Source: a virus. Taken from it: a stretch of DNA of 40,103 nt. This document shows positions 1-40,103 of the stretch, in pieces (positions within the stretch are counted from its first letter, which is position 1; every line of letters begins with the position of its first letter). A program made the translations under genes and the position numbers. A model generated the notes under the pieces. It was not told the DNA's origin, ran no database searches, and saw only the letters and a program-made list of their open reading frames with translations. The stretch is from the IMG/VR virus record IMGVR_UViG_3300044722_000022, positions 1 to 40,103 of that record. One strand, given 5' to 3'.

Positions 1-315
1 TTGGCTGCACGGAGCGGGGACGGAGCAGCGCGCGCGAAGGCCGGAGCCCGCAGGACCGCGGCGCGGGCCCAGGCCGCCGCCTGCCGGCTGGCGCCGAACG
101 GGGTCGCGACGATCGCGCGCGATGCGGTCGCGCACGCGTTCGACGAGATCGGCGGCGTGGCGGCGCTTGCCGAATGGGTGAAGGCGAACGAGGACAACCG
201 CAAGATCTTCTACACGAGCCTCTATCCGAAACTGATCGCGCTCCGGCAGCCCCCCGGCGAGACGGAGAAGCATGAACCGATCCATGAGATAAGGCGCATC
301 ATTGTCCGCCCATGA
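1..315 (+). CDS. Phage terminase small subunit (5' end outside window)
   Basis: This is probably the DNA-recognition subunit of the packaging motor. The frame is open from base 1, so the true start lies upstream. The C-terminal part (ALAEWVKANEDNRKIFYTSL, then YPKLIALRQPP) resembles the conserved end of small terminases found next to this type of large subunit, in which an 'ALAEW..N...FY..YPKL' block is followed by a short basic tail. The stop at 313-315 overlaps the next gene, whose TTG start is at 302, so the two are translationally coupled. The second small terminase at 38449-38769 has a related end (FLDWALDNSTDFYKLATRLLP). Identification rests on position and this short motif. The N-terminal Ala/Arg-rich stretch carries no recognisable domain. 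Confidence 0.7.
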   Translation: MAARSGDGAARAKAGARRTAARAQAAACRLAPNGVATIARDAVAHAFDEIGGVAALAEWVKANEDNRKIFYTSLYPKLIALRQPPGETEKHEPIHEIRRIIVRP

Positions 316-1594
316 GATCGCCACGGCTGCGGCGTTCGACCCGCTGCTGGCGCCGGCGCGGTACAAGGGCGCGTGGGGCGGGCGGGGATCGGGCAAATCC
401 CATTTCTTCGCCGAGAAACTGATCGAGGACAGCCTTTGCGAGCGGGGCCTGCTCAGCGTCTGCATCCGCGAGGTGCAGAAATCGCTGAAGGACAGCGCCA
501 AGAGGCTGATCGAAAGCAAGCTCGCCAGGTTCGGGTTCGGCGAGGCGGACGGGTTCAAAATCTATCGGGAGCTGATCCGGACTCCGGGCGACGGCATCAT
601 CATCTTCCAGGGCATGCAGGATCACACGGCCGAGAGCATCAAATCGCTCGAAGGCTTCCGGCGCGCGCTGGTGGAGGAGGCGCAGAGCCTTTCCGCCCGC
701 AGCCTGGCGCTGCTGCGGCCGACGATCCGCGCGGCCGGCTCCGAGCTCTGGTTCGCCTGGAATCCGCGGCGGCGGACCGACCCGGTCGACGCGATGCTGC
801 GCGGGCCGGAAATCCCAACGGGCGCGATCGTCGCGCGGGTCAACTGGTCGGACAATCCGTGGTTCACCGCCGAGCTCCAGCAGGAACGGCAGGATTGCCT
901 GAGGATGAGCCCCGATCAGTACGACCATATCTGGGAAGGCGGTTATGCGAAGGTGACCGAAGGCGCTTATTATGCGCGGCAGCTCAGCGAGGCGCGGGCG
1001 GCGGGGCGGATCGGCCGCGTCTCCGCCGACCCGCTGATGACGGTGCGCGCGGTGTTCGACATCGGCGGGACCGGCGCCAAGGCGGATGCGGTCGCGATCT
1101 GGATCGTCCAATATGTCGGGCGCGAGCTGAGGTGGCTCGATTATTACGAGGCGCAGGGCCAGCCGCTCGCCACCCATGTCGGCTGGCTGCGCGCCAAGGG
1201 CTATGGCAGCGCCTTGTGCGTGCTGCCCCATGACGGGGCGACGGCGGACCGGGTGCACGACGCCAGCTACGAAAGCGCGCTGCGGCAGGCCGGCTTTGCG
1301 GTCGTCGTGGTCCGCAACCAGGGCAAGGGCGCGGCGACCCTCCGGATCGAGGCGGCGCGGCGGCTGTTCCCCAATATGTGGTTCAACGAAGCAAGCTGCG
1401 CCGCCGGCCTCGACGCGCTCGGGGCCTATCACGAACGCAAGGACGAGGCGCGGGGCATCGGGCTCGGGCCGGCCCACGATTGGGCCTCGCACGGCGCCGA
1501 CGCCTTCGGGCTTGGCGCCGTGGCCTATGAGGCCCCGATCGAGAAGCGCAGGATCAGGGACCGGCCGGTGATCGAGGGAGGATGGATGGGATGA
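302..1594 (+). CDS. Phage terminase large subunit (ATPase and nuclease)
   Basis: Motor and nuclease of DNA packaging, 430 residues. Walker A (GGRGSGKS) is at residues 26-33 and a Walker B-like VEEA at about 124-127. The C-terminal RNase H-like nuclease half has acidic positions in VFDIGGTGAKADA (about 251-263), LPHDGAT (about 305) and HDWASHGADAFG near the end. The start must be the TTG at 302: an in-frame stop lies at 290-292 and no in-frame ATG follows before Walker A. A weak AAGG lies upstream. The gene overlaps the small subunit and also the portal start (ATGA at 1591-1594). The C-terminal half is closely similar to that of the second large terminase at 38766-40103, whereas the N-terminal ATPase halves differ strongly. 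Confidence 0.93.
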   Translation: MSAHEIATAAAFDPLLAPARYKGAWGGRGSGKSHFFAEKLIEDSLCERGLLSVCIREVQKSLKDSAKRLIESKLARFGFGEADGFKIYRELIRTPGDGIIIFQGMQDHTAESIKSLEGFRRALVEEAQSLSARSLALLRPTIRAAGSELWFAWNPRRRTDPVDAMLRGPEIPTGAIVARVNWSDNPWFTAELQQERQDCLRMSPDQYDHIWEGGYAKVTEGAYYARQLSEARAAGRIGRVSADPLMTVRAVFDIGGTGAKADAVAIWIVQYVGRELRWLDYYEAQGQPLATHVGWLRAKGYGSALCVLPHDGATADRVHDASYESALRQAGFAVVVVRNQGKGAATLRIEAARRLFPNMWFNEASCAAGLDALGAYHERKDEARGIGLGPAHDWASHGADAFGLGAVAYEAPIEKRRIRDRPVIEGGWMG

Positions 1595-3606
1595 GCCGCA
1601 AGCCGAAAGCCACCGCGGATGATGCCGATGCCGGCGGCGACGAGCGCCTGATCGAGCGCGCGCGCAAGGATTATGAGCGCTGCCGCGACGCTTGGCACCA
1701 GAATCAGGAAAGCGCGCGCGAGGATCTGCGCTTCGCCAGGCTCGGCGAGCAATGGCCGGCCGAGATGGAGCAGCAGCGGAAGCGCGAGAACCGACCCTGC
1801 CTCACCTTCAACAAGATGCCCGCCTTCATCCGCCAGGTCGTCAACGACGCGCGGCAGAACAAGCCGAGCATCAAGGTGCATCCGCAGGACAGCGGCGCCG
1901 ACAAGAGGGTCGCGGAGATTTTCGACGGGCTGATCCGCAACATCGAGACCGCGTCCGACGCCGACGTCGCCACCGACACCGCGATCGAGCATGCGGTGGG
2001 GCAGGGGTTCGGCTTCTGGCGCTACAATCTCGCTTATACGTGCGACGACGCCTTCGAGAAGGACATCGTCGTCGAGCGGGTGGCGAACCCGTTCGCCGTC
2101 TATGGCGACCCGCGATCGACCGCCGCCGATTCCTCCGACTGGGACGTGGCGTTCATCGTCACCACCCTGTCGAAGGACGAATATGAGCGCGAATATCCCG
2201 ATGCCGAGAAGACCGACTGGGACCATGATTTCCGGGACTGCCCGGAATGGCTGGACGGCGACGACGTCACCGTCGCCGAATATTGGACGCGCGAGAAGGT
2301 GCGGAGCGCGATCGTCGCGCTTTCGGACGGCACGATCGAGCGGGTCGATGAGGTCGAGCGCCGGGCGGCGGAGCTGGCCGCCGCCGGCATCGGCATCGTC
2401 GGGAGTGCCCGCGAGACCGAGAGCTGGAAGGTGAGGCAGCACATCATGTCCGGCGCCGAGCTGCTGAAGAGCGTCGACTGGGCGGGCAAATATATCCCGA
2501 TCGTCCCGGTCTATGGCGACGAGGTGATCGACGAAAGGGGCAAGCGCTGGTTCCGCTCGCTGATCCGCGACGCCAGATCGGCGCAGCAGATGTTCAATTA
2601 CTGGCGGACGACGACGACCGAGCTGATCGCGCTCGCGCCCAAGACGCCCTGGATCGGCGAGGAAGGCGCGTTCGACGCCGATCCCCATTGGGACACGGCC
2701 AACAGCACCAGCCATGCCAGGCTGGAATATGCGAAGGGCTCCCCGCCGCCGCAGCGCCAGCCTTTCTCGGGCGTCCCCGCGGGGGCGCTGCAGGAGGCGC
2801 TCAACGCCAATGACGACATGAAATCGATCATCGGGATTTACGATGCTTCCCTCGGCGCGCGGAGCAACGAGACTTCGGGCCGCGCGATCCTGGCCCGGCA
2901 ACGCGAGGGCGACGTTTCCACCTTCCACTTCATCGACAATCTCAGCCGCGCGATCCGCCATGGCGGCCGCATCCTGCTCGATCTCATCCCGCTTGTGTAC
3001 AGCAGCGAGCGGATGGTCAGGATATTGGGCGAGGATCTGGCGCCGGCGGCGGTGAAGATCGCGCCGACCGGGCAGCCGGTCACCGAGCATGCGGACGAGA
3101 CCGGGCGAATCGTCGCCCGCATCTACGATCTCACCGCCGGGAAGTACGATCTTACCGTCTCGTCGGGCCCGTCTTTCACGACCAGGCGCGAGGAGGCGGC
3201 GATGCAGATGGAGAGCTTCATCCAGAAGGTGCCGCAGGCGGCGCCGCTGATCGGCGATCTCTATGCGGAGGCGCTGGATTGGCCGCTGGCCGGCAAGATC
3301 GGCGAGCGGCTGAAACTGCTGCTGCCGCCGGAGCTCCAGGAAAGCGGGGGCGGCCAGCCGCAGGTCCCGCCGCAGCTTCAGGGCCAGATCCAGCAGGGGA
3401 TGCAGGTCATCCAGCAGCAGGGACAGCAGCTTCAGCAGGCGCAGCAGCGCATCCAGGCGCTGGAGCAGGGAGCGGCGATCAAGGCGCGGGAGCTCGACCT
3501 CAAGGAGCAGGAGCTGCGGATCAAGGGCTTCGAAGCGGAGACGCAGCGCATCGCGGCGGGGCGGCCCCACTTCGGGAAGGCGGCGCCGCCCCCGACGGAA
3601 CCGTAG
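1591..3606 (+). CDS. P22-type portal protein
   Basis: Forms the dodecameric DNA-entry ring at one capsid vertex, 671 residues. The N-terminal half has the P22-like portal signature: AREDLRFARLGEQWP, then RPCLTFNKMPAFIRQVVNDA and DARQNKPSIKVHPQDSGADK, then ADVATDTAIEHAVGQGFGFW and NPFAVYGDPRS. The C-terminal about 90 residues are Gln-rich with a heptad-like helix, as expected for the portal barrel or coiled-coil end. I chose ATG 1591 over ATG 1582 because GAGGGAGG (1574-1581) is correctly spaced from 1591 but abuts 1582, and 1591 gives an ATGA overlap with the terminase. The scaffold gene normally follows directly in P22-like phages; here 3.4 kb of cargo intervenes. Confidence 0.93.
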   Translation: MSRKPKATADDADAGGDERLIERARKDYERCRDAWHQNQESAREDLRFARLGEQWPAEMEQQRKRENRPCLTFNKMPAFIRQVVNDARQNKPSIKVHPQDSGADKRVAEIFDGLIRNIETASDADVATDTAIEHAVGQGFGFWRYNLAYTCDDAFEKDIVVERVANPFAVYGDPRSTAADSSDWDVAFIVTTLSKDEYEREYPDAEKTDWDHDFRDCPEWLDGDDVTVAEYWTREKVRSAIVALSDGTIERVDEVERRAAELAAAGIGIVGSARETESWKVRQHIMSGAELLKSVDWAGKYIPIVPVYGDEVIDERGKRWFRSLIRDARSAQQMFNYWRTTTTELIALAPKTPWIGEEGAFDADPHWDTANSTSHARLEYAKGSPPPQRQPFSGVPAGALQEALNANDDMKSIIGIYDASLGARSNETSGRAILARQREGDVSTFHFIDNLSRAIRHGGRILLDLIPLVYSSERMVRILGEDLAPAAVKIAPTGQPVTEHADETGRIVARIYDLTAGKYDLTVSSGPSFTTRREEAAMQMESFIQKVPQAAPLIGDLYAEALDWPLAGKIGERLKLLLPPELQESGGGQPQVPPQLQGQIQQGMQVIQQQGQQLQQAQQRIQALEQGAAIKARELDLKEQELRIKGFEAETQRIAAGRPHFGKAAPPPTEP

Positions 3607-7962: not shown

Positions 7963-9162
7963 ATGGCGAACACTCTCCTGACTCCCACCGCGGTGACCCG
8001 CGAAGCGTTGCGGATCCTGCACCAAAAACTCACCTTCATCGGCTCGATCAACCGCCAATATGACGACAGCTTCGCCAAGGAAGGCGCGAAGATCGGCGAC
8101 ACGCTGAAGATCCGGCTGCCCAACCAGTACACCGTCACCAGCGGCGCCACCCTGGTCACCCAGGACACGTCCGAGACCTCGGTGTCGCTCCAGGTCGCGA
8201 CCCAGAAGCATGTCGGCATGAACTTCACCTCGGCCGAGCTCACCATGTCGATGGACGATTTCTCGAAGCGGATCATCGAGCCGGCGATGGCCGTGCTGGC
8301 GGCCAATGTCGAAGCCGACGCGCTCGGCACGATGCGCAAGGACGTCTATCAGCAGGCCAACAACATAGCGGCGGCGATCACCTTCGCCAACGTGCTCTCC
8401 GGCCGGCGCAAGCTCAACGACGCGCTCGCGCCGCCGGGCGACCGCACCGCCTTGCTCTCGTCGAACGACAGCGCCAATCTGGTCGACGCGTTGAAGGGCC
8501 TGTTCCAGGACGACGGGCAGATCGCGAAGCAATATCGCGAGGGCTATATGGGCCGAACGGCGGGTTTCGACTTCGCCGAATCCACCCATTTGTCGACCCA
8601 GACCAGGGGCGCCGGCGACGCCGCTTATGTGGTCAACACCTCGTCCGGGGTCACGTCGGGCTCCGCCACCATCGCGGTCACGGCCGGCACGGGCACGATC
8701 AGGCAGGGCGAGGTGATCACCATCGCCGGCATCGACGGCGTTCATCCGGAATCGAAGGTCGATACCGGCGTGCTCCAGCAGTTCGTGGTCACCGCGGATT
8801 ATGCAGGCGGCGCCGGCAACATCACCGTTTCGCCGGTTCCGGTGACGTCGGGGGCGACCCAGAATGTCGTGATCAATTCGGCCGGCGCATCCAAGGCCGT
8901 GGTGATCGCCGGTACCGCCTCGACCAATTACGGCCAGTCGATGGTCTATCAGAAGGACGCCTTCACCTTCGCCACGGCCGATCTGGTCATGCCGAAGGGC
9001 GTCGATTGGGGGGCGCGTGAGGTCTATGACGGCATCTCGCTTCGCATCGTGCGCGATTACGACATCAACAACGATCGCCTGCCGACGCGATGCGACATCC
9101 TTTACGGCTACAAGACGCTCCGGCCGCAGCTCGCCTGCCGCCTGGCGAACCTCGCCGGTTAG
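7963..9162 (+). CDS. Major capsid protein, P22 coat family
   Basis: 399 residues, HK97-fold coat subunit of the P22 type. The N-terminal part (MANTLLTPTAVTREALRILH, then YDDSFAKEGAKIGDTLKIRL and PNQYTV) is the conserved start of this family, and VGMNFTSAELTMSMDDFSKR follows. A beta-rich insertion at about residues 225-310 (SGSATIAVTAGTGTIRQGEV, FVVTADYAGGAGNITVSP) corresponds to the telokin/insertion domain of P22 coat. The end (VRDYDINNDRLPTRCDILYG) is also typical. An intrinsic terminator follows immediately, so coat transcription is probably insulated from the cargo downstream. Coat and scaffold form the expected pair. Confidence 0.93.
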   Translation: MANTLLTPTAVTREALRILHQKLTFIGSINRQYDDSFAKEGAKIGDTLKIRLPNQYTVTSGATLVTQDTSETSVSLQVATQKHVGMNFTSAELTMSMDDFSKRIIEPAMAVLAANVEADALGTMRKDVYQQANNIAAAITFANVLSGRRKLNDALAPPGDRTALLSSNDSANLVDALKGLFQDDGQIAKQYREGYMGRTAGFDFAESTHLSTQTRGAGDAAYVVNTSSGVTSGSATIAVTAGTGTIRQGEVITIAGIDGVHPESKVDTGVLQQFVVTADYAGGAGNITVSPVPVTSGATQNVVINSAGASKAVVIAGTASTNYGQSMVYQKDAFTFATADLVMPKGVDWGAREVYDGISLRIVRDYDINNDRLPTRCDILYGYKTLRPQLACRLANLAG

Positions 9163-9168
9163 GCGGGA

Positions 9169-9201
9169 GGGGAGAGGCCTCGCGGCCTCTCCCCCATTTT
9201 T
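9169..9201 (+). terminator. Rho-independent terminator after coat gene
   Basis: An 11-base-pair GC-rich stem (GGGGAGAGGCC at 9169-9179, GGCCTCTCCCC at 9184-9194) with a TCGC loop is followed by CA and five T. It begins 6 bases after the coat stop. This is the clearest intrinsic terminator in the window and marks the end of the head transcript. Confidence 0.85.
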
Positions 9202-9299
9202 ACGACCCCATGCGTCAAGGCGGAGCCCGGTCGCGAATTTGTTGGAGTGGAAGCGCGCCGAACATGGCGCCGGCCGGGTCGTTGCGTTACCGAATCCCG

Positions 9300-10100
9300 A
9301 TGCCGAAATATCGTCTCACGACCAGCAGCGCCGGGCGCTTCCTCACGATTCCGACCGACGCCTATGTCGGAAAATCGATCGAGCTTTACGGCGAATGGTC
9401 GTTCGGCGAGATACTCGCGCTTGGGAAATTCCTCCAGCCGACCGACAATGTGATCGAAGTCGGCGCGAACATCGGTGCTCACACCGTCTTTCTGGCGCGC
9501 GATCTTTGCCCGAAAGGGCTCGTGCACGCTTTCGAGCCCCGGCGAGCGCTGTTCCAGCTCCTGTGCGCAAATCTGGCGCTCAACGACGTGACCAACGTCT
9601 TCGCTCACCAGCTCGCGCTCGGCGACGAGGAAGGGCTTCTCCTGGAAGGGCCGATGCCCGGGGATCGGACGATCAACGCCGGCGCATACACCCTCGGCGC
9701 GTTGCCCGGCTCGAGCGAGCGTATCCTGATCCGGCCGCTCGACAGCATGGCCGACGCGCTCGGAAAGACCGCCCTGATCAAGGCCGACGTCGAAGGCCAC
9801 GAAATTGCGGTGATCAGGGGTGCCGCCGCGATCATCGCGCGCGATCGGCCGGCGCTCTATGTCGAGAACGATCGGCTCGAACAGAGCGAGGCCCTGATCT
9901 CGCACATCATGGGCCTCGATTACGACCTCTATTGGCACATCGTGCCGCTGTTCCGGCCTGAAAATCACGCGGGCACGGCCCAGAACATTTTCGGCAGCAT
10001 CGCGTCCTTCAACATGCTGTGCTTCCCGAGCGAGCGCGCTGCCCGGGTGTCGCACTTGCCGAGAATCTCGGATCCGGTTGCCCATCCGCTTCGCCGCTAG
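9300..10100 (+). CDS. FkbM-family methyltransferase
   Basis: 266 residues, a SAM-dependent O-methyltransferase of the FkbM type, which commonly methylates sugar hydroxyls. The sequence YGEWSFGEILALGKFLQPTD leads to the SAM-binding motif NVIEVGANIGAHTVFLA, then VHAFEPRRALFQLL and the family's DVEGHE motif in LIKADVEGHEIAVIRGA. The start is uncertain: ATG 9300 begins where similarity would start; ATG 9264 adds 12 residues. It follows the coat terminator, so it needs its own promoter. With four glycosyltransferases nearby, a role in modifying a glycan (on the virion or the host surface) is a reasonable inference. Its stop codon lies inside the palindromic element that follows. Confidence 0.88.
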   Translation: MPKYRLTTSSAGRFLTIPTDAYVGKSIELYGEWSFGEILALGKFLQPTDNVIEVGANIGAHTVFLARDLCPKGLVHAFEPRRALFQLLCANLALNDVTNVFAHQLALGDEEGLLLEGPMPGDRTINAGAYTLGALPGSSERILIRPLDSMADALGKTALIKADVEGHEIAVIRGAAAIIARDRPALYVENDRLEQSEALISHIMGLDYDLYWHIVPLFRPENHAGTAQNIFGSIASFNMLCFPSERAARVSHLPRISDPVAHPLRR

Positions 10101-28530: not shown

Positions 28531-28647
28531 CATTGCGGGTTTTTGAAGGGAGACGTGCCAGCCCTCATTGCATTCCAGTCCGATCGAACTCCGTTGCGCC
28601 GCGGCTGGTGCAGCATCCGAGCCAAATCTCAGCTTCAGGAACCCCAG

Positions 28648-31416
28648 ATGACGTTTTATCCCGGAACCTCCCTGAATGACACATTCCACATTCAGGCTGG
28701 CGACAGTGCGAACGGCCAAGCGGGAAACGACACGTTCCTGCTCACCGGGATAAGCTCCAGCACGGTCCGCACCACCCTCGATGGGGGCGCCGATGCGGAC
28801 ACCCTTGATGCCAGCAACGTCTTCGTCGGCTTCGAGATAATGTTCTTCACGGACGACTATTCCGATACGGGGTCCTTCAACGTCGGTTCCTTCCATGTCC
28901 GTGGCGTGGAGACGATCTACGGAAGCCTCCTAGGGGGTAACTACTTCACGCTGCAAAATGCGCAGAGCGGGCTTACCCTTTATGGGGCGAACTATGCCGA
29001 TGTGTTCACGGGCTCATTCGACTATGCGGACACCTTCGCAGGTTTCGGCGGAAACGATACGTTCAATATTCGATACGGCGACGTCGCGCTCGGCGGCGGC
29101 GACAATGACTCCTTCGTCTTCTATGCCACCGGTTACGGATATGCCGATGGGGGATCCGGCACCGACACCCTCGTGCTCGCTTTCGGCTGGACGGCAGACC
29201 TAGCGGCCGGGGCGGCGCACGGCCCCCTCGCCGGGCCGACCTCGACCCTTGTCAGCATCGAGAACATCCAGATCACCGCGATGTCCGGCTATGCGTCCTC
29301 GGCTTACGGGGACGATGGCGCGAACGTGATAGAGGTGACCACCGACGCCTTTGAAGACGATGGCAGGGCTGGAGTGGTCTTCGACGGACGGGGTGGCGCG
29401 GACACGCTGATTGGCAGCCACGGCGCCGACTCCCTCTCGGGAGGCGACGGCGATGATATTATCGCGGGCGGGGCCGGCGCGGACACGATCAATGGAGGGG
29501 CCGGCAACGATGTCCTGATCGGGGGCGCGGGGGCGGATACGCTCGTCGGCGATACGGGACTGGACTTGGCCAGTTACAGTGACGCCACGCAAAGTGTGAC
29601 GATCAATCTCACCACCGGCGTCTACACCGGAGACGCGGCCGGCGACTCTTTCTCCGGCATCGAGGGGTTCGTGCTCTCGACCAAAAACGACTACTTCGTG
29701 GGCGACTCAGGCGCGAACATAGTGTTCGGCGGGGGCGGTGCCGACGTCCTCGAAGGGCGCGGCGGCAACGACACTTTTTTTGGCGACGCGTCGGCCCCGA
29801 TCACCATTTATGGCGGAACGGGCGACGACTGGTTCTATGTGTACAATGGCGGCGACAGCATCGTCGAGGCCGCGGGCGAAGGCAATGATCGCATCTTGGC
29901 AAGCGTGAGCTTCACGCTCTCGGCCGGCCAGGAGGTCGAGTGGCTGGCGGCGGCCGACCCGGCCACCACCACCGCGATCAACCTGACCGGCAACGCTCTG
30001 GCGCAGGTGATCGGCGGCAATGCGGGCGCCAACGTCCTAATCAGCGGAGGCGGCGCGGATTATCTCGTCGGCTTCGGCGGCGACGATGTGCTGGTTGGCA
30101 ATGCCGACACCGCTTCGACCCTTCAGGGCGGGACGGGCAATGACTGGTATTATATCTCCCGGACGGGCGACTCCCTGGTCGAGTTCGCCGGCGAAGGGAA
30201 TGACCGCATCCTGACCAGCGTGAGCTACACGCTGTCGGCGGGCCAGGAGATCGAGACCCTCAGCGCGGTCGATCCAGCCGCGACTACGGCCATCGATCTG
30301 ACCGGCAACGCCTTGGCGCAAGTGATCAACGGGAATGCCGGGGCAAACGTTCTGGCCGGCGGCGGCGGCAGTGATTATCTCGTCGGCCTGGGCGGCGACG
30401 ACATATTGGTCGGCAATGCCGACACCGCCTCGACGCTCCAGGGCGGGACGGGCAATGACTGGTATTATATCTCCCGGACCGGCGACTCTCTCGTTGAGTT
30501 CGCTGGCGAAGGGAATGACCGCATCCTCACCAGCGTGAGCTACACGCTCTCGGCGGGCCAGGAGATCGAAACCTTGAGCGCCGTCGATCCGGCTGCGACG
30601 ACGGCCATCAGCCTGACCGGCAACGCCCTGGGGCAAGTGATCAACGGGAATGCCGGGGCGAACGTTCTGACCGGCGGCGGCGGCAGCGATTATCTCGTCG
30701 GGCTGGGCGGCGACGACATATTGGTCGGCAATGCAGATGCGAACTCGACGCTACAGGGCGGGGCCGGCAACGACTGGTATTATATCTCCCGGACCGGCGA
30801 CTCACTGGTCGAGTTCGCCGGCGAAGGGGATGACCGGATCCTGACCAGCGTCAGCTACACCCTCTCGGCGGGTCAGGAGATCGAGACCCTGATGGGCGTC
30901 GATCCGGCGGGCACCGCGGCGATCGATCTTGCCGGCAACGGCTTTGGCCAGTTCATCCAGGGGACGAACGGCGCCAACGTCCTGTTCGGCGACGCGGGCG
31001 CGGACATTCTTGCCGGGCTGGGCGGCTCCGATACCCTGGGCGGCGGCGACGGCGACGACCAGCTGAATGGCGGCGCCGGCAACGACGTTCTGACCGGCGG
31101 CACCGGCGCCGACCAGTTCGTCTTCGCCGATGCGCTCGGCTCAGGCAACGTCGATCTCGTGCAGGACTTCGTGTCGGGCACCGACCGCCTGCTCCTCGAG
31201 CACGGCATCTTCACCGGCCTCTCGGCGGGTGCGCTCGCGCCCGGAGCCTTCGTGACGGGGACAACGGCCCAGGATGCCGACGATCGCATTCTCTACGATG
31301 CCACCACCGGCAACCTTTATTACGATGCCGATGGCAACGGCGCCGGAGCCGCGATTTTGTTCGCAACTCTGAGCGGCCATCCTGCCCTCACTGCAAGCGA
31401 CGTCACGGTCATCTGA
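28648..31416 (+). CDS. RTX (calcium-binding repeat) secreted protein
   Basis: 922 residues. MTFYPGTSLNDTFHIQAGDS starts directly with RTX-like sequence. Glycine/Asp nonapeptide repeats of the GGxGxDxLx type occur around residues 250-305 (GAGNDVLIGGAGADTLVGD) and again near the end (GGDGDDQLNGGAGNDVLTGG). Between them are four 105-residue repeats containing DWYYISRTGDSLVEFAGEGN and DRILTSVSYTLSAGQEIETL. The C-terminal part (LVQDFVSGTDRLLLEHGIFT, ILYDATTGNLYYDADGNGAG, FATLSGHPALTASDVTVI) is the usual type I secretion end. No protease or lipase domain was found, so it is likely structural or adhesive. AGGA lies before ATG 28648. No secretion genes are in the window. Confidence 0.88.
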   Translation: MTFYPGTSLNDTFHIQAGDSANGQAGNDTFLLTGISSSTVRTTLDGGADADTLDASNVFVGFEIMFFTDDYSDTGSFNVGSFHVRGVETIYGSLLGGNYFTLQNAQSGLTLYGANYADVFTGSFDYADTFAGFGGNDTFNIRYGDVALGGGDNDSFVFYATGYGYADGGSGTDTLVLAFGWTADLAAGAAHGPLAGPTSTLVSIENIQITAMSGYASSAYGDDGANVIEVTTDAFEDDGRAGVVFDGRGGADTLIGSHGADSLSGGDGDDIIAGGAGADTINGGAGNDVLIGGAGADTLVGDTGLDLASYSDATQSVTINLTTGVYTGDAAGDSFSGIEGFVLSTKNDYFVGDSGANIVFGGGGADVLEGRGGNDTFFGDASAPITIYGGTGDDWFYVYNGGDSIVEAAGEGNDRILASVSFTLSAGQEVEWLAAADPATTTAINLTGNALAQVIGGNAGANVLISGGGADYLVGFGGDDVLVGNADTASTLQGGTGNDWYYISRTGDSLVEFAGEGNDRILTSVSYTLSAGQEIETLSAVDPAATTAIDLTGNALAQVINGNAGANVLAGGGGSDYLVGLGGDDILVGNADTASTLQGGTGNDWYYISRTGDSLVEFAGEGNDRILTSVSYTLSAGQEIETLSAVDPAATTAISLTGNALGQVINGNAGANVLTGGGGSDYLVGLGGDDILVGNADANSTLQGGAGNDWYYISRTGDSLVEFAGEGDDRILTSVSYTLSAGQEIETLMGVDPAGTAAIDLAGNGFGQFIQGTNGANVLFGDAGADILAGLGGSDTLGGGDGDDQLNGGAGNDVLTGGTGADQFVFADALGSGNVDLVQDFVSGTDRLLLEHGIFTGLSAGALAPGAFVTGTTAQDADDRILYDATTGNLYYDADGNGAGAAILFATLSGHPALTASDVTVI
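29683..30942 (+). repeat. Four 315-bp tandem repeats in the RTX gene
   Basis: Anchors such as the GACTGG before TTCTATGT/TATTATATC recur at 29827, 30142, 30457 and 30772, i.e. every 315 bases. The unit starts can be placed at about 29683, 29998, 30313 and 30628. Units 2-4 are nearly identical at DNA level and unit 1 is more diverged. A period divisible by three keeps the frame, so copy number can change without breaking the gene. Confidence 0.85.
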
Positions 31417-31680: not shown

Positions 31681-32334
31681 CTATTCGCCTTCGTCTTCAT
31701 CAATCGCCGCGTTCAGTGTGTTGCCGATGTCGCGACTGGACACTGCCGGGCGACGTCCCACCGTTCGCGAACGCGCTATATGCGACTGTAACTCGCTTAA
31801 GCGACGGTCAGCGTCAGCGGCCGGCTCCCCGGCGCCGGTCGACGCCGCTAGGTAGCGCTGGGCGGCGGTTTCGCTGTCGAACCAAGCGGTCTCGTTATCG
31901 AGGCCGGTTGTGTCGGCCTTGCCGAGCGAGCGGACGGCGAGCACGTCGAAGGCGCCGCACTGATCGAGCTTAGCCCAAGCGAAGTGGCGAGCGAGTGCGT
32001 CGTAGCAGTTCTGGCTGTAGATCATTGCGCCGGAGAAGCCTTCGGCGGCGAAGGCGGTGCGAAGGTGGGCGGCGCCGCGGTTAATGCTGGCGGCATTCAG
32101 CGGCTCGGGCGCGGGGGGCGGCCCTTGCGCCGCAATCGCATTGCTCATGTCAGTGGCATAGTTGGTGTCGGCCGCGGAATTAGCCGGGCCGTTGTTGCGC
32201 GAAGAGCATTGCCCGATCACCGCAATCAGCAAGATGATGCCGACAAGAACGCCCCAAGCAAGGCGGCCGCCGCCGGAGGTCGGCTGCGTCTGGACATTCG
32301 GCGCACGGAAGGCGGGCGGCTTGGGTGTCATCAT
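31681..32334 (-). CDS. Single-pass membrane protein, unknown function
   Basis: 217 residues. A short basic/proline-rich N-terminus (MMTPKPPAFRAPNVQTQPTS) is followed by one membrane segment (RLAWGVLVGIILLIAVIGQC, about residues 24-43), and the remainder lies on the far side. That part has paired Cys (MIYSQNCYDALARHF, AKLDQCGAFDVLAVRSLGKA) and a helical end (ADADRRLSELQSHIARSRTV), and it ends acidic (IDEDEGE). No strong ribosome site is visible; ATG 32334 and ATG 32331 are adjacent alternatives. The 31417-31680 gap between this gene and the RTX stop holds no gene. It is divergent from the Hxs operon. Confidence 0.68.
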   Translation of the reverse strand: MMTPKPPAFRAPNVQTQPTSGGGRLAWGVLVGIILLIAVIGQCSSRNNGPANSAADTNYATDMSNAIAAQGPPPAPEPLNAASINRGAAHLRTAFAAEGFSGAMIYSQNCYDALARHFAWAKLDQCGAFDVLAVRSLGKADTTGLDNETAWFDSETAAQRYLAASTGAGEPAADADRRLSELQSHIARSRTVGRRPAVSSRDIGNTLNAAIDEDEGE

Positions 32335-32468
32335 TCACGACGATGCCTGAAACGACGCAATCGTCGCGACTCAGTGCCCGCGCGCTGCTTCACCGACTCC
32401 GCCACGCATTCCCCCTTGTCGTCGTTCAATCTAGCGGCGCTTTGCCGGGGCGCAATCGGCAAATCGAC

Positions 32469-32495
32469 TTGACGCTATCTTACGGAAATTAATCT
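32469..32495 (+). promoter_or_regulatory. Promoter candidate for the Hxs operon
   Basis: TTGACG (32469-32474) is a good alphaproteobacterial -35, followed after 15 bases by TAATCT (32490-32495) in an AT-rich patch. The operon's first reading frame begins about 50 bases downstream. The short spacing makes this tentative. Confidence 0.35.
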
Positions 32496-32544
32496 TGTTG
32501 GCGCGGCGGACTCGTCCTAATCTTCGCGCGATGGGGGAAATGAC

Positions 32545-32601
32545 ATGGTACGCGCCGAGTCCCGTGTAATTGCGCCGCGCCGGCTGGTGATGCAGCCGTG
32601 A
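32545..32601 (+). CDS. 18-codon ORF coupled to hxsB
   Basis: The frame MVRAESRVIAPRRLVMQP has a GGGGGA site (32533-32538) six to seven bases before its ATG. Its TGA (32599-32601) overlaps the GTG start of hxsB as GTGA. hxsB lacks a good site of its own, so coupling is likely. It could be a leader peptide or the remains of a missing hxsD; it does not resemble HxsD. Upstream in this frame there is a stop at 32518. Confidence 0.4.
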   Translation: MVRAESRVIAPRRLVMQP

Positions 32602-34031
32602 CATTGCTCTCGCTTCGTGCACGTCCGCTACGCGGATCGGATGACGCACTCTGCGTTACCGACAGCGGGCGGTTCTTCGCGGCCAGCCCCGACTTCGCGG
32701 ACCGGCTCGGCCGCGACGCCCTATCGGCCGGCGACATGGATTTCCTGCACCGCGAGGGCCACGCCATCGCCGTGGATGACGAGCTGGGCGCGGTGGCCCA
32801 TGCCTTCGCGCTAGGCCAGCGGCTGAACCAGCCCGAGACGCTGGACTATCTCATCCTCGTGCCGACGCTGCGCTGCAACCTTTCTTGCAGCTACTGCCAG
32901 GTCTCGCGCGCGGCGCTGGATGCGCGCGGCTTCGACTGGTCGGACGAAACGCTCGCCTCGGTTCTGGATTTGCTCGAGTCACTTCCAACCGACCGGATCA
33001 AAATTGAGTTTCAGGGCGGGGAACCGACGCTGCGGCCTGACTTGATCCGCGCGGTGATCGCACGCGCCGAGCGCTTCGAACATCGAGAGTTCGTGATTTG
33101 CACGAACCTGCAGCGGCTTAGCCCGGAAATCGTTGGGCTGTTCGACCGGCCCGATCTCTTCATCAGCACGTCGCTCGATGGCGACGCGGCGACGCACGGC
33201 GCCAATCGAACGGGTGACGATGCCGCCACCGGCGTTTTCATGGAAAACTTGAGGTTCGTGCTCGACCGGTACGGGCCGCGCAAGGTTTCGGCGCTGCCGA
33301 CAGTCGATCCGATCAACCCGCCGGATATCGACGCGCTGATCGACAGCTACGCCGATCTCGGACTCGACCACATCTTCCTGCGCCCGATCAATTATCAGGG
33401 CTTTGCGCGCAAGCGGCATAGCCATTCGCGCGAGCAGAGCGAGGCGTGGCGCGATTATCATGAGCGCTTCGTGCGCCGGTTGATCGAGCTCAACTGGCAG
33501 GACAAGAGCCGGGTGCTCAGCGAAAGCTATTTCACGATCTGCCTGCGGCGCATCTTTCAGCCGGGCCGGGAGAGGCATGTCGATCTGCGCAGCCCGAATC
33601 CGATGGGGGTCGATTACATCGTGGTCGACCATGACGGCACGATCTACCCGACCGACGAAGCACGGATGCTGTCGCGCTCCGGCGTCATCGACCTGTCCAT
33701 CGGGGATATCGCGTCGGGGTGGGATACCGAGGCGCGGGGGCTCTTGAACGCGCACGCGACCAACCAGCGCGATCCGGCCTGCCAGTGCTGCACCTACCAG
33801 CCCTTCTGCGGGCGCGACCTCGTGGACGATATCGCCCGTTACGGGCGTATCGACATGCCCCGGGAGGAGACCGAGTTCTGCCGGAAGCATCTTCGGCTGT
33901 TCGATTTCATCTTCAGCCTCATCTACGAGGATGATCCGGCGGTGAGCTACTCGCTCAGCCGCTGGCTACGGCTGCCGGGGACGCCGCTCGCGCTCGGGAC
34001 GCGGGCGCCGGGCGGGATCCGCGCAGCATGA
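32598..34031 (+). CDS. hxsB: His-Xaa-Ser system radical SAM maturase HxsB
   Basis: 477 residues. The radical SAM iron-sulphur motif CxxxCxxC is in LRCNLSCSYCQ (Cys 93, 97, 100), after an N-terminal domain of about 85 residues. FQGGEPTLRPDLI is the SAM-binding GGEP block. A SPASM/twitch-like Cys cluster (PACQCCTYQPFCGRD and EFCRKH, residues about 395-428) should hold auxiliary clusters. Paired with a second radical SAM protein and an HxS-repeat protein, it fits HxsB of the His-Xaa-Ser peptide-modification system, in which the pair is thought to modify the repeat protein. The start is GTG 32598, coupled to the 18-codon frame upstream. It overlaps the next gene by ATGA (34028-34031). Confidence 0.88.
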   Translation: MTLLSLRARPLRGSDDALCVTDSGRFFAASPDFADRLGRDALSAGDMDFLHREGHAIAVDDELGAVAHAFALGQRLNQPETLDYLILVPTLRCNLSCSYCQVSRAALDARGFDWSDETLASVLDLLESLPTDRIKIEFQGGEPTLRPDLIRAVIARAERFEHREFVICTNLQRLSPEIVGLFDRPDLFISTSLDGDAATHGANRTGDDAATGVFMENLRFVLDRYGPRKVSALPTVDPINPPDIDALIDSYADLGLDHIFLRPINYQGFARKRHSHSREQSEAWRDYHERFVRRLIELNWQDKSRVLSESYFTICLRRIFQPGRERHVDLRSPNPMGVDYIVVDHDGTIYPTDEARMLSRSGVIDLSIGDIASGWDTEARGLLNAHATNQRDPACQCCTYQPFCGRDLVDDIARYGRIDMPREETEFCRKHLRLFDFIFSLIYEDDPAVSYSLSRWLRLPGTPLALGTRAPGGIRAA

Positions 34032-35155
34032 TCCCGCTCAATCTTCCGGCGATGGCCGAAGCCGAGCGGCCATACGTCACCCGTCTCCGGTCGCGGCGGC
34101 CGGCAGGGCCGGCAGGCGATTGTCTTTCGACCGATTCCTACCTTGTCGAAGAAACGCCTGAAGGTGGAGCCTTCAGCGGCGCGCACGGCCTCATTGCAGT
34201 CGATGGCGTCCCGGCCGGCCAGCTCGACGGCGACGTCGTGCTGGTACAGCCGCAGGCCCGGCCGGGATCGTCCGGGCGCATTGAGCGGCTGCTGCGTGCG
34301 CGCCGGCCTGGCGAGCCACGCGTGCACAACACGCTACTCGTGACGGAGCGCTGCGACCAGCTCTGCGTCATGTGCTCACAGCCTCCCAAAAAGACGCATA
34401 TCGACCGCTTCGCCTTACTCGAAGACGCCTGCCGCTTGGCGGAGCCGAGGAGCCTGATCGGCATCACCGGGGGAGAGCCAACGCTCTACAAGGATCAGCT
34501 TCTGGGCATGATCGAGCGCGTGCTGGCCGCGCGGCCCGATATCGAATTCCACGTGCTGAGCAACGGGCAGCATTTCGAGCGGGAGGACATCGCCCGGCTG
34601 CGCCAGCCGATCTTCCGGCGCGTAAGCTGGGGTATCCCGCTCTACGCGCCCGCGCTGGGCCTGCACGATGAAATCGTCGGCAAGGCGGGAGCCTTTGCCC
34701 GGCTCGAGGAGAGCTTCGCCTACCTCGTCCAGGCCGGTGCGCGGATCGAGCTGCGCACCGTGCTGCTCGCCTCCAACGTCGCGGCACTGCCGGCACTGGC
34801 GCGCTACGTGACGACGCGGCTGCGATTTGTCGAAGTGTGGTCGATCATGCAGCTGGAATGTACCGGCTTCGCGAAGAACCGCTGGCGCGATCTTTTTGTG
34901 GATCACGCGGCCGATTTCGGGCCGGTCGCGGCGGCACTCGACACGGCTTTCCTTCACGGCGTGCGGGCGCAGCTTTTCAACTTCCCGCGCTGCACCGTGC
35001 CGGCGCCCTACCGGCACGTCGCCGTGGCGTCGATCTCGGACTGGAAGCGCAAATACACGCCCGCTTGCGCGGGCTGCCGCGAGCAGGACAGATGCTGCGG
35101 GTTTTTCGAATGGCATCCCGACGACGAAGCATTGATGGGAGTGAGGCCCCTATGA
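34028..35155 (+). CDS. hxsC: His-Xaa-Ser system radical SAM maturase HxsC
   Basis: 375 residues. After a variable N-terminal domain (about 100 residues) comes RPGEPRVHNTLLVTERCDQL then CVMCSQPPKK, giving the CxxxCxxC motif at Cys 109, 113 and 116. ITGGEPTLYKDQLL supplies the GGEP motif. C-terminal Cys residues (ACAGCREQDRCCGFF, about 347-357) resemble the auxiliary-cluster region of the family. In the described Hxs systems HxsC is always paired with HxsB, as here with a four-base overlap. It ends in an ATGA overlap with the repeat-protein gene (35152-35155), so the three proteins are made in close ratio. Confidence 0.88.
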   Translation: MIPLNLPAMAEAERPYVTRLRSRRPAGPAGDCLSTDSYLVEETPEGGAFSGAHGLIAVDGVPAGQLDGDVVLVQPQARPGSSGRIERLLRARRPGEPRVHNTLLVTERCDQLCVMCSQPPKKTHIDRFALLEDACRLAEPRSLIGITGGEPTLYKDQLLGMIERVLAARPDIEFHVLSNGQHFEREDIARLRQPIFRRVSWGIPLYAPALGLHDEIVGKAGAFARLEESFAYLVQAGARIELRTVLLASNVAALPALARYVTTRLRFVEVWSIMQLECTGFAKNRWRDLFVDHAADFGPVAAALDTAFLHGVRAQLFNFPRCTVPAPYRHVAVASISDWKRKYTPACAGCREQDRCCGFFEWHPDDEALMGVRPL

Positions 35156-35865
35156 CCGAGGGCAAGAAGATTCGGCGATTCCTGATCCCGAGCCTGCTAG
35201 CGGCCGGGTTCATCGCGCACGATCCGGCGACCGCCGCGGTGCCGCAGGTAACTACCAGCGGCGGCGACGATCCGAACCGGGCCGACGCGCCGCGTCCTTT
35301 CGCGCAGGATCATCTGGTGACGCTGGCGCAGCATGCGAGCCACGCCAGCCACTCGTCGGGCGGTTACAGCGGCGGCCACGCCAGCCATGCCAGCCATTCG
35401 TCGGGCGGCTACAGCGGCGGCCACGCGAGCCATATGAGTCATACCAGCCACCGGTCGAGCGCGACTTACGAGCCCTACGACGATGCCGATTACGGCACGT
35501 CGCCGCCGCCGGTGCCGGCCCCTCCGCCGCCGCCCCCGTTGATGCCGGCGCCGAACGGGCCGCGCACGATGCCGCCACGAGGCACAGGCGGGCTGTTCGA
35601 CACGCCCTCCGCCTCGTCAGAAGCGACGGCGCCGACGCAGAACGCGCTCCCTGCAATGCCGGGGCGCTCGCAGCGCTTCGCGTCGATCGTGCGCCGCGTA
35701 CAGATCGCGCTGCTTGCACAGGGCTTTTACGATGGCCCGATCAACGGCGCGGTCGGTCCAGCCACGCGCGCCGCGCTCCGCGAGTTCCAGCGCAGCCGCG
35801 ATCTCGAAGAAACCGGCACGATCACGCCGCCAACGCTGGATGCGCTGCGGGTATCGAGCGACTAG
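35152..35865 (+). CDS. hxsA: His-Xaa-Ser repeat protein HxsA
   Basis: 237 residues. A weak signal-like N-terminus (MTEGKKIRRFLIPSLLAAGF then IAHDPATAA) points to export. Residues 61-102 hold ten His-Xaa-Ser units (HASHASHSS, HASHASHSS, HASHMSHTSHRSS), the presumed target of the radical SAM pair. A Pro-rich linker (about 118-145) is followed by a C-terminal peptidoglycan-binding-type domain (FASIVRRVQIALLAQGFYDG, PINGAVGPATRAALREFQRS, LEETGTITPPTLDALRV, residues about 175-233). This domain combination matches HxsA of the published system. A cell-wall-attached, post-translationally modified protein is therefore expected. It overlaps hxsC by four bases. Confidence 0.88.
   Translation: MTEGKKIRRFLIPSLLAAGFIAHDPATAAVPQVTTSGGDDPNRADAPRPFAQDHLVTLAQHASHASHSSGGYSGGHASHASHSSGGYSGGHASHMSHTSHRSSATYEPYDDADYGTSPPPVPAPPPPPPLMPAPNGPRTMPPRGTGGLFDTPSASSEATAPTQNALPAMPGRSQRFASIVRRVQIALLAQGFYDGPINGAVGPATRAALREFQRSRDLEETGTITPPTLDALRVSSD
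35332..35421 (+). repeat. Two 45-bp units encoding HASHASHSSGGYSGG
   Basis: The first unit (35332-35376) and second unit (35377-35421) encode the same 15 residues with a few silent differences, and a third partial unit (HASHMSHTSHRSS) follows to 35457. The differences at third positions show selection on the protein, so this is a coding repeat and not a CRISPR-like array. Confidence 0.8.
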
Positions 35866-35923: not shown

Positions 35924-36766
35924 ATGAACATGCTTCGACAATTCTTCGCACCGCTAGCGATGCTGCTGGCTTTCGCTTCATCCTCCGCCCCTGCCGCCAG
36001 GCACCGGACTGCGGCGCCCTCGCACCATGTTGATCCGGCGCCGCCAGTCCCGCCGCCCTGCCTCCAGTTTTATCTCGGCGGGCAGGCGCCGGCTGTGGTC
36101 GCACCCACTGCTCCGAACGGGCAGGTTTTCTGCCACAGCTTCTACGCGCTCTCCTATTCGACCGCACTGCACGATCCGATCTGGACATCCTACGAACTGA
36201 CAGCGGCTATGGTGCGCGGCTCTGCCGGCTTCGATCGCGCGAACATCACTTCATTCGCCGCGCAGGCTGGTTTGAGCGCGACACAACAGGCGAGGAATAG
36301 CGATTACACCGACCGGCGCTTTCAACGTGGGCACATGACGCCCGATAATGACGCCGGCGATGAGCCGGCGCAGGCCGACACTTACGTGATTACCAATGTC
36401 GTGCCGCAAAATGGGGGGCTTAACGGCGGGCTCTGGGCGCGGCTCGAGGGCGCGGTGCACGCGCTGGGCGGCAGCGAAGGCTCAGTATTCGTCGTCACTG
36501 GTCCGCTGTTCGAGTCGAGCCGGCCGCCTATGCACGGGATCGCAATACCGTCGCATACGTTCAAGGCGATCTTCGTGCCGTCGCGCGGTTTTGCGCTGGC
36601 ATTTGTAGCGACCAACGAAAAGCCGACGGTCTGCACAATCGTCCCTATCGACGACATCGCGCGCCGTGCTGGGATCGACCCGTTCCCGTCACTGCCGGCA
36701 AGCGTCAAGGCGACTCTGCCGGTTAGGCCGCCCGGCTGGGGACATTTTCCGCGCGCCTGTCACTAG
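35924..36766 (+). CDS. Secreted DNA/RNA non-specific endonuclease
   Basis: 280 residues. The signal peptide MNMLRQFFAPLAMLLAFASS ends at SAPAA. The catalytic motif is FQRGHMTPDNDAG (His at about residue 137); the usual first residue is Asp (DRGH), replaced by Gln here. TNVVPQNGGLNGGLWARLEG gives the metal-binding Asn and the typical LN.G.WARLE block, and VFVVTGPLFESSRPP and IPSHTFKAIFVPS are also usual. The family cuts DNA and RNA without sequence preference using a beta-beta-alpha-metal site. ATG 35924 has GGAGG and AGG sites upstream; the longer frame from 35714 is not used. It lies 58 bases after hxsA, same strand. Confidence 0.88.
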   Translation: MNMLRQFFAPLAMLLAFASSSAPAARHRTAAPSHHVDPAPPVPPPCLQFYLGGQAPAVVAPTAPNGQVFCHSFYALSYSTALHDPIWTSYELTAAMVRGSAGFDRANITSFAAQAGLSATQQARNSDYTDRRFQRGHMTPDNDAGDEPAQADTYVITNVVPQNGGLNGGLWARLEGAVHALGGSEGSVFVVTGPLFESSRPPMHGIAIPSHTFKAIFVPSRGFALAFVATNEKPTVCTIVPIDDIARRAGIDPFPSLPASVKATLPVRPPGWGHFPRACH

Positions 36767-37093: not shown

Positions 37094-38143
37094 CTAATCC
37101 GGCCAGATTGTGGCCAACAGCTGGGCAAGCCGAGCACCGCCCTTAGCGATCTGCTCGCGCTGGATCCGTTCCCGAGCACCGTCGTAGTCGTCTTGATTGC
37201 CGAAATTCACACGCCAAGTGTTGCCGTGCTTGGAGCCGAAGGTCAGGCCCTCAAACGCGTGACGGGATTGTATAAGCGTATCGTTCGCCCATTGCTCCAC
37301 CCATCCGTCCATTGATCCCGTCGTGGGCGTGACTTGGCGCGCGGCGGCCACGGAATCGCTCAGCGGAATCGAGGGAATGCCGTCCCATACCGAATGCAGT
37401 TTGAGTATTCCTCCACGGGGGCCCGGGTTCGGCCAGGTAAGTGAATTGCCGCCGAAATTGAATGTTACCTTGGAATCCAATGCGCGGGCACGTTCCGAGG
37501 TAGAGGAATCAGGATCGACGCGGCCTCCCTGCTCGTCCAGATAGATCGAGCCTACATGCAACGGCTGGTGCAGGTCACCGATTAGGTGCACGAGCATCAT
37601 CAGCGCCTGACTACAGGTGAAATGGAAATTCCCAGGAGCGTGCACCTCGGTGGTGTCTGGCGGTTGTGGCCCGCTGCAGTCGGGCGTCTGCAGCACGGTG
37701 ATCGCGGCCTTCATGGTTTGGACAATGTCGTAGGGGCGGGTGCCGACGTCGCCGAAATGATAGCGGAGCCGTTGCAAGGCCATGTTGACGAAGTGGTATT
37801 GGCTATGGCAGCCGTCGCGCTCGTTCTTGCACTGGTCCCAAGTGCTCCAATTGTTGCGGACGTAGCTCTCCATTGAGGCCTGTCGCGCGCCGCCTTCAAA
37901 GACGAGGCATGGCGGGCGGAAGTCGGGCGCGGGTGTGTAATGGAAACCGTCGGCTGGACCGGTGACTGAGCGGACGCAATCGCCCCACGGGCCCGCCTGA
38001 GCCAAAGTGATGTCGCCAAGGATCGCCCGTATCTGGGCGGCGGCGCGCGGGTGATTCTCCTTCAGCAGCTCATCGGCAACTGCGCCCACCTCAGTATGGC
38101 CGGGCGGCCCCCAAGCAACGGCGGCGGTGGTAACGATGGCCAT
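37094..38143 (-). CDS. S1/P1-type nuclease, signal peptide split by a frameshift
   Basis: 349 residues from the ATG at 38143. The mature N-terminal Trp motif is AWGPPGHTEVGAVAD (Trp as first residue after cleavage). ALMMLVHLIGDLHQPLHVG is the hallmark zinc-site block, GPWGDCVRSV and FHYTPAP supply other ligands, and LKLHSVWD is the last His/Asp. These secreted enzymes cleave single-stranded DNA and RNA with three zinc ions. A better start is ATG 38195 with GAGGGGAGAGGA upstream, whose reading (MTAPRPIQRVF...) joins the nuclease frame if one T of a six-T run (plus-strand A 38162-38167) is skipped, giving a full signal peptide ending AVA-W. As written, the signal peptide is truncated. Confidence 0.85.
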   Translation of the reverse strand: MAIVTTAAVAWGPPGHTEVGAVADELLKENHPRAAAQIRAILGDITLAQAGPWGDCVRSVTGPADGFHYTPAPDFRPPCLVFEGGARQASMESYVRNNWSTWDQCKNERDGCHSQYHFVNMALQRLRYHFGDVGTRPYDIVQTMKAAITVLQTPDCSGPQPPDTTEVHAPGNFHFTCSQALMMLVHLIGDLHQPLHVGSIYLDEQGGRVDPDSSTSERARALDSKVTFNFGGNSLTWPNPGPRGGILKLHSVWDGIPSIPLSDSVAAARQVTPTTGSMDGWVEQWANDTLIQSRHAFEGLTFGSKHGNTWRVNFGNQDDYDGARERIQREQIAKGGARLAQLLATIWPD

Positions 38144-38448: not shown

Positions 38449-38769
38449 ATGCCCCGCACCTACACACCCCGCATCCCGGCCGGCGAAAAGCGTCCCAAAA
38501 CCGGCGGCCGCAAGAAAGGCTCGCGCAACAAGACCACCGTCGCCATCCGCGAGGCGATGCTCCAGGTCTTTGCCGATATGCAAAACACGACTGGCCGGGA
38601 AAACGGCCATTTCCTCGATTGGGCGCTCGACAACTCGACCGATTTCTACAAGCTGGCGACGCGCCTGCTGCCCCTGCAGGTCACGGGTGAGAATGGCGGA
38701 CCGGTGATTACGCGCATCGAGCTGGTCGCGCCCACGGCGGAGGATATCGCGCGGGAGCGGGGACAATGA
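38449..38769 (+). CDS. Phage terminase small subunit, second copy
   Basis: 106 residues, complete. The N-terminus MPRTYTPRIPAGEKRPKTGG then RKKGSRNKTTVAIREAMLQV is the usual small-terminase start (a basic 'GGRKKGSRNKTT' linker before the helical DNA-binding part). ENGHFLDWALDNSTDFYKLA then TRLLPLQVTGENGGPVITRI is the conserved end, with YKLATRLLP corresponding to the block in the partial copy at the start of the window. AAGGAG lies before ATG 38449. The stop overlaps the next start (ATGA, 38766-38769). The 38196-38448 gap upstream should contain the promoter. Confidence 0.85.
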   Translation: MPRTYTPRIPAGEKRPKTGGRKKGSRNKTTVAIREAMLQVFADMQNTTGRENGHFLDWALDNSTDFYKLATRLLPLQVTGENGGPVITRIELVAPTAEDIARERGQ

Positions 38770-40103
38770 GCGCCGCCGGCCCCGAGGGCATCGCCCGGAT
38801 CAAGCCGCCGCCGAAGCTCATCCCCGTCTTCTCCGGCCCGGCCCGCTATCGCGGCGCCTGGGGCGGGCGCGGCTCGGGCAAAAGCCGCACCTTCGCCAAG
38901 ATGAGCGCCGTCTCCGGCTATATGTGGAGCAAGGAGGGCGATGAGGGCGTCATCCTGTGCGGCCGCGAATATATGAATTCGCTTGAGGAAAGCTCGATGG
39001 CCGAGATCAAGGCGGCGATCCGTTCCGAGCCCTGGCTCGACGCCCATTACGATATCGGGGAAACCTATATCCGCACCCGCTGCGGCCGAATCGAATATTG
39101 CTTCACCGGCCTCCGCCACAGCCTGGACAGCATCAAGTCCAAGGCCCGGATCAAACTGCTTTGGGTCGACGAGGCCGAGCCGGTCAGCGAGGCCGCTTGG
39201 CAAAAAGCGATTCCGAGCGTGCGTGAGCATGGCTCGGAAATCTGGGTGACGTGGAATCCGGAGCGCAAGGGTAGCGCTACGCACCGCCGTTTCCGCGAGT
39301 TCCCGCCGGCCGATAGCCGGATTGTCGAGCTCAACTGGCGCGACAATCCATATTTCCCGCAGGTCCTCGAAGACGCCCGGCTCGAGGACCAGCGCCTGCG
39401 CCCCGACAGCTATGAGCATATCTGGGAGGGCGGTTTCGTATCGGTCGTTGAAGGCGCCTATTATGCCGCCTCGCTCACCGAGGCGAAATCCACCGGCCGC
39501 ATCGGCCATGTCGCCTTTGATCCTTTGCTGCCCATCCGTCTCTATTGCGACATCGGTGGCGCAGGCGCTCGCGCGGACGCCTTCGCCTTATGGCCCGCGC
39601 AGTTCGTCGGCCGCGAAATCCGCGTCCGCGATTACTACGAAGCGCAGGGCCAGCCGCTCGCGGCCCACCTCGCCTGGCTCAGGAGCATGGGCTATGGACC
39701 CGATCGGGCAGCTTTCTGGCTACCGCATGACGGCGCGACTAGCGATCGCGTCTATGCCGTCTCCTACGAAAGTGCGCTCCGCGACGCCGGCTACAAGGTG
39801 AGCGTCGTCCCCAATCAGGGCCGCGGGGCGGCCGCGACCCGGATCGAGGCGGTCCGCCGCCTCTTCCCTGCCATCTGGTTCGACGACGAGAGCACGGCCG
39901 GCGGGCGAGACGCGCTGGGCTGGTATCATGAGCGGCGGGACGCAATGCGCGGCATCGGCCTCGGGCCGAAGCACGATTGGTCATCCCACGGCGCCGATGC
40001 CTTCGGCCTGATGTGCGTCGCTTATGAAGAGCCCCGCCCGGGGCGGCTGCGGCGGATGAAGCCGCTCGATCGTCACTATACGGATGGCGCTTGGATGGGG
40101 TGA
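38766..40103 (+). CDS. Phage terminase large subunit, second copy
   Basis: 445 residues, ending exactly at the window edge. Walker A (GGRGSGKS) is at 33-40, Walker B (LLWVDEAE) at 131-138, and the ATPase part has CGREYMNSLEESSMAEIKAA and RHSLDSIKSKARI. The nuclease half has CDIGGAGARADAFALWPAQF, LPHDGATSDRV and KHDWSSHGADAFGL, and is strikingly close to the first copy at 302-1594. The N-terminal half is only distantly related, with a different Walker B context. This suggests recombination within the gene or a second, partly related phage. Both copies end in GGWMG/GAWMG. The portal of this second module should lie just downstream of the window. Confidence 0.92.
   Translation: MSAAGPEGIARIKPPPKLIPVFSGPARYRGAWGGRGSGKSRTFAKMSAVSGYMWSKEGDEGVILCGREYMNSLEESSMAEIKAAIRSEPWLDAHYDIGETYIRTRCGRIEYCFTGLRHSLDSIKSKARIKLLWVDEAEPVSEAAWQKAIPSVREHGSEIWVTWNPERKGSATHRRFREFPPADSRIVELNWRDNPYFPQVLEDARLEDQRLRPDSYEHIWEGGFVSVVEGAYYAASLTEAKSTGRIGHVAFDPLLPIRLYCDIGGAGARADAFALWPAQFVGREIRVRDYYEAQGQPLAAHLAWLRSMGYGPDRAAFWLPHDGATSDRVYAVSYESALRDAGYKVSVVPNQGRGAAATRIEAVRRLFPAIWFDDESTAGGRDALGWYHERRDAMRGIGLGPKHDWSSHGADAFGLMCVAYEEPRPGRLRRMKPLDRHYTDGAWMG

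Follow-up and report, generated by a model that had tools for sequence, protein, structure and literature searches.

An hxsD-less His-Xaa-Ser operon and its divergent neighbour, hxsX, in a virus-classified record

Introduction

The His-Xaa-Ser (Hxs) system is catalogued in NCBIfam as four proteins, HxsA (TIGR03979), HxsB (TIGR03978), HxsC (TIGR03977) and HxsD (TIGR03976), and in Klebsiella the genes are ordered D-B-C-A. A literature search returned almost nothing on Hxs and no experimental study of its product or of HxsD, so all Hxs function, including the chemistry, the location, the identity of the substrate and the roles of HxsD and of the HxsX protein described below, is what we infer.

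Cassettes with the same gene order occur on rhizobial plasmids (Aminobacter pAA02, Agrobacterium pAt and Rhizobium plasmids), where HxsB is 46-51% identical to that of the window, i.e. the whole 40,103-nucleotide stretch of DNA analysed here (IMG/VR record IMGVR_UViG_3300044722_000022). Unlike the window, these cassettes have a divergent hxsD upstream of hxsB, and on four annotated plasmids it is either called hypothetical or left unannotated. On pAA02 (L180) the hxs cassette is immediately preceded by a CBASS defence cluster (1-3317). Seven sphingomonad loci (L027, L030, L031 and L176-L179) share with the window an hxsBCA set that lacks hxsD, but they belong to a separate clade and six of the seven carry genes for a MauG-type di-haem peroxidase and a 132-residue protein.

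The window resembles the NCBIfam system in its HxsB and HxsC, both of which score above their cut-offs, in the architecture of HxsA and in the overlapping B-C-A genes, which are arranged as in Klebsiella. It differs in having no hxsD, in an HxsA that falls just under its cut-off and in two additional linked genes, hxsX and an endonuclease gene. The locus is a well-preserved hxsD-less Hxs variant, as the earlier note on this DNA had considered it might be, and not a complete four-gene system within the 40 kb record.

Results

The earlier note, made from the letters alone, had described an hxsBCA operon with four-base overlaps, and this is borne out by the coordinates (Table 1): the three genes are contiguous, their frames are intact and both junctions, hxsB/hxsC and hxsC/hxsA, overlap by 4 bases. 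HxsB and HxsC exceeded their NCBIfam cut-offs (377.3 bits vs 370 and 289.5 bits vs 267.9, respectively), while HxsA, at 115.6 bits (E 2.5e-33), came slightly below its curated cut-off of 121.65. The ten HxS units and peptidoglycan-binding-type domain attributed to HxsA were both recovered, with exactly ten triplets counted between residues 61 and 102 and a Pfam match to PG_binding_1 at E 3.8e-13. The CxxxCxxC motif seen in each maturase corresponds to C93/C97/C100 in HxsB and C109/C113/C116 in HxsC; C-terminal cysteines are conserved in both proteins, and all of the conserved cysteines are retained in the window. Assignment of the two maturases to another radical SAM system was rejected, as other NCBIfam families scored far below their cut-offs and matches to viperin were at superfamily level.

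Table 1. Features of the window discussed in the text
Feature	Coordinates	Strand	Description
large terminase 1	302-1591		
hxsX (name coined here)	31684-32334	-	lies divergently beside the hxs operon; a single transmembrane helix and a helical domain
spacer, 263 bases	32335-32597	.	site of hxsD in relatives; no hxsD-like frame in six-frame and stop-read-through profile searches
18-codon ORF MVRAESRVIAPRRLVMQP	32545-32601	+	GGGGGA Shine-Dalgarno-like stretch; 4-base overlap with hxsB
hxsB	32598-34031	+	radical SAM/SPASM maturase; TIGR03978
hxsC	34028-35155	+	second radical SAM maturase; TIGR03977
hxsA	35152-35865	+	exported-type, ten HxS units, PG_binding_1; TIGR03979, PF01471
DNA/RNA non-specific endonuclease	35924-36766	+	PF01223 (E 3e-39); signal-peptide-like N-terminus; 58 bases past hxsA
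large terminase 2	38766-40103		49% identical to the first; record ends exactly at its stop codon

In the repeat region of HxsA (35332-35433) a 15-residue block, HASHASHSSGGYSGG, is duplicated at a place where relatives have HRSHSSHSSH-type units. Because the protein scores below its cut-off and its repeats are unlike those of relatives, the substrate may have been remodelled in this hxsD-less locus and may still be changing.

Alphaproteobacterial hxs loci usually do contain an hxsD, but its sequence has diverged so far that the curated model does not recognise it, and in annotations it is hypothetical or missing. Across the genomes of 11 relatives, TIGR03976 gave no match above its cut-off; one canonical copy scored 45 bits, and the weak matches (E 0.38 and 1.08) that two rhizobial genomes gave fell exactly on the small gene that abuts hxsB. 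The curated model is thus unfit as the sole test, since most hxsD-bearing relatives are missed by it too. In relatives, an ORF of 75-97 residues lies upstream of hxsB and ends at the hxsB start, and a custom HxsD profile was built from 13 of these; each was recovered in leave-one-out searches (13/13, E<=7.7e-8). With this profile, 23 of the 31 comparison loci were found to have an HxsD-like gene immediately before hxsB; seven of the 23 lie outside the training set (L168-L174, though L171 is nearly identical to a locus used in training). The profile performs well without being infallible, as it missed a diverged hxsD in L175 that is supported by comparison of the protein tails (p 0.0002). HxsD evolves fast, with a single invariant residue across 19 sequences, so the custom profile can miss a copy.

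The divergent gene occupies the position of canonical hxsD in the Klebsiella cluster. When the two were aligned with hhalign, the C-terminal 33 columns matched in the same register at E 0.011, with a probability of only 3.8%; homology between them is likely, if weakly supported. The AF2 model of HxsD has a beta-alpha-beta-beta-alpha order (pLDDT 92.5). Its identification as an RRE, i.e. a PqqD-like winged helix, was rejected, as nothing in the PDB matched at E<=0.001 and the 50 matches listed included no RRE.

Against this background, hxsD is absent from the 40 kb record. TIGR03976 had no match in the window, the best match of the custom profile across all 40 kb was antisense within hxsB (E 0.15), and the frames upstream of hxsB, with stops read through, reached only 2.1 bits. 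The absence is taken as real because the profile finds the gene in 23/31 relatives yet finds nothing here. The earlier observation that no nearby frame could encode HxsD therefore holds, even through stop codons, and neither model places an HxsD elsewhere on the contig. The NCBIfam models, which the earlier note had named as a check for HxsA to HxsD, gave a clear answer for HxsB and HxsC, one just under the line for HxsA and none for HxsD, the last with a model that is insensitive here. Compared with sphingomonad relatives, the B-C-A order is kept, and most of the relatives compared have hxsD directly upstream of hxsB.

The short ORF within the spacer does overlap hxsB, in keeping with the coupling suggested previously, and it may couple its translation to that of hxsB. 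As a remnant of hxsD it was rejected: its tail is unlike HxsD tails (shuffle p 0.77, compared with 0.0002 for the L175 copy), and the shared TGA carries no information because any start codon followed by A yields it.

In a tree of HxsB and HxsC together, the window is nested within an hxsD-bearing sphingomonad clade (UFBoot 95), and the seven hxsD-less loci form a clade of their own (UFBoot 91). When the whole genomes of the seven were searched with TIGR03976 and the custom profile, no convincing HxsD match emerged; nearly all of the weak matches were within larger frames and none adjoined hxs, whereas the custom profile reached 1e-23 and 1e-25 in two hxsD-bearing control genomes. As the window and the seven relatives fall in different clades, the simplest reading of the tree is that hxsD was lost at least two times. 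The suggestion that HxsD is dispensable thus gains indirect support, in that seven related genomes keep hxsBCA and lack a convincing HxsD.

Compared with L028 (NG86), dN was 0.22 and dS 0.98 for hxsB (dN/dS about 0.22), and dN was 0.24 and dS 1.02 for hxsC (dN/dS about 0.24); these ratios are close to those between hxsD-bearing relatives and mainly reflect time preceding the loss of hxsD. The branch leading to the window is of ordinary length. Together with the retained cysteines, these values argue that HxsB and HxsC are under purifying selection and, unless hxsD was lost very recently, that the system has persisted in its absence. In a Sphingomonas locus (L002, around 7209, G002:C14) hxsB has one in-frame TGA; the gene is intact in its near relative, L001/L032.

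The minus-strand neighbour, hxsX, has homologues at 19 of 24 sphingomonad hxs loci, and in 16 the homologue is divergent and directly upstream. Among 399 Sphingomonadaceae genomes, hxsB is present in 10 and strong hxsX matches in eight, all of them among those 10 (hypergeometric 3e-15, shared ancestry ignored). The six rhizobial genome loci in the comparison yielded no homologue. HxsX has no Pfam or NCBIfam family; its invariant residues include two cysteines of the helical domain, C110 and C126, and the AF2 model consists of one membrane helix and a confidently predicted helical domain (mean pLDDT 83). A function could not be drawn from this fold, as the model had no PDB match. From its linkage, hxsX appears to be an undescribed partner and a candidate Hxs component.

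Downstream of hxsA, the endonuclease gene is possibly on the same transcript as hxs. Homologues lie near hxs in L002 (3601-3996), L011 (887-1489), L030, L177 and L178. The endonuclease is only weakly enriched among hxs genomes (4/15 vs 25/236, p 0.08), and its adjacency is the stronger observation: in the 251-genome sample, four hxs-bearing genomes have an endonuclease homologue and in three of the four it adjoins hxs. A gene for an S1/P1 nuclease (37097-38143, minus strand) converges on the hxs/endonuclease side, which places two nucleases near the operon. The 132-residue protein and MauG-type peroxidase genes located downstream of hxsA at six of the seven loci without hxsD (L027, 12776-14414; also L176-L179 and L030) are likewise found after hxsA in L010, which has hxsD; the peroxidase is a possible oxidative partner of Hxs.

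Discussion

The locus is probably a sphingomonad-type Hxs cassette, once arranged as hxsX / hxsD-hxsB-hxsC-hxsA, from which hxsD was lost on its own lineage while hxsBCA stayed under selection. This reading is carried by direct observations: which genes are present and in what order, the families to which they belong, the loss of hxsD and where it falls on the tree, the constraint on the sequences and the linkage of hxsX. Two points weigh against it, namely the slightly low score and unusual repeats of HxsA, and the prospect of a recent loss with decay still ahead, since dN/dS mostly predates the loss.

How the cassette came to be in a virus-classified record bears on its origin. The first 28.4 kb or so are a P22-like late module (terminase, portal, scaffold and coat), in which an FkbM-type methyltransferase ORF (9090-10097) sits between the coat and adaptor genes and overlaps the coat gene; directly past the last phage-like gene is an RTX calcium-binding repeat protein of 957 residues (28543-31416). 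The operon could be cargo of a temperate P22-like sphingomonad phage, an origin compatible with the loss of hxsD from a once complete cassette and in line with the viral classification, the late module at the start of the record and a Leptospira phage record that carries hxsA-D-B-C. We nonetheless hold it to be unlikely. The closest sister phages (portal 91-98% identical), known from partial sequences, have no hxs match, and pattern-based searches of viral contigs, which are fragments, turned up no HxsB, HxsC or HxsX relatives. The region from 28 to 38 kb is tied to phage contigs only by weak RTX similarity and a short stretch before the RTX gene. Because a second, different terminase closes the record and the partial sister-phage sequences have no hxs match, the hxs segment looks like bacterial-type host DNA between two phage elements. 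Furthermore, the record ends exactly at the stop codon of that terminase, which suggests that it is a trimmed provirus with host DNA as well as two phage elements.

If the cassette did lose hxsD, a divergent copy elsewhere in the host genome, beyond the 40 kb, or an unrelated replacement protein might still serve it in trans. The fast evolution of HxsD and the L175 copy, seen only by tail comparison, lend this some credence, but in all 24 relatives with an HxsD in the examined locus (24/24) the gene is directly upstream of hxsB, and neither model found a convincing match elsewhere in the seven sister-clade genomes; supply in trans is quite improbable. Decay of the whole locus, with hxsD the first gene to go and the others no longer useful, is very unlikely. 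L011 does have partial hxs remnants (about 127 residues of hxsB and an HxsA domain) and the window HxsA is remodelled in its repeats, but three intact coupled frames, every conserved cysteine, the low dN/dS and the ordinary branch speak otherwise. An assembly or binning artefact, conceivable for a single virus-collection record in which, as its two terminases show, parts of two elements are joined, can be set aside as highly improbable, as hxsX on one side of the gap and hxsBCA on the other lie in a single uninterrupted sequence, arranged and oriented just as in relatives.

For the cassette that has lost hxsD, a working model can be outlined from sequence and predicted structure. HxsB and HxsC, as two [4Fe-4S] radical SAM enzymes, would be translated together with their substrate, HxsA, and would modify its ten HxS units in the cytoplasm prior to export. 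HxsA would then be exported and retained in the periplasm through its C-terminal peptidoglycan-binding domain. HxsX, which may be anchored in the inner membrane with its helical domain probably periplasmic, would assist or receive HxsA. HxsD would help the maturases without itself being catalytic, and the window cassette and one sister clade dispense with it; it is taken as a losable partner of this kind because its predicted fold has no significant PDB match and no listed RRE. Taken more broadly, the proposal that two radical SAM enzymes can carry out Hxs maturation in the absence of HxsD, and that sphingomonads add HxsX as a membrane-anchored partner, is a tentative one, to which we give a little under an even chance.

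Apparent 'hxsBCA only' operons are usually not true losses, as annotation misses the alphaproteobacterial hxsD, and the custom profile together with the position rule separates true losses from missed genes. Furthermore, hxsX is added as a candidate Hxs component. Natural hxsD-less systems, arising from at least two separate losses and with close hxsD-bearing relatives, allow direct comparison and make the role of HxsD testable. Should HxsA prove to be modified in the absence of HxsD, HxsB and HxsC would make up the minimal maturase set; HxsD would then be an accessory factor, and the minimal machinery of the family would be HxsB, HxsC and HxsA.
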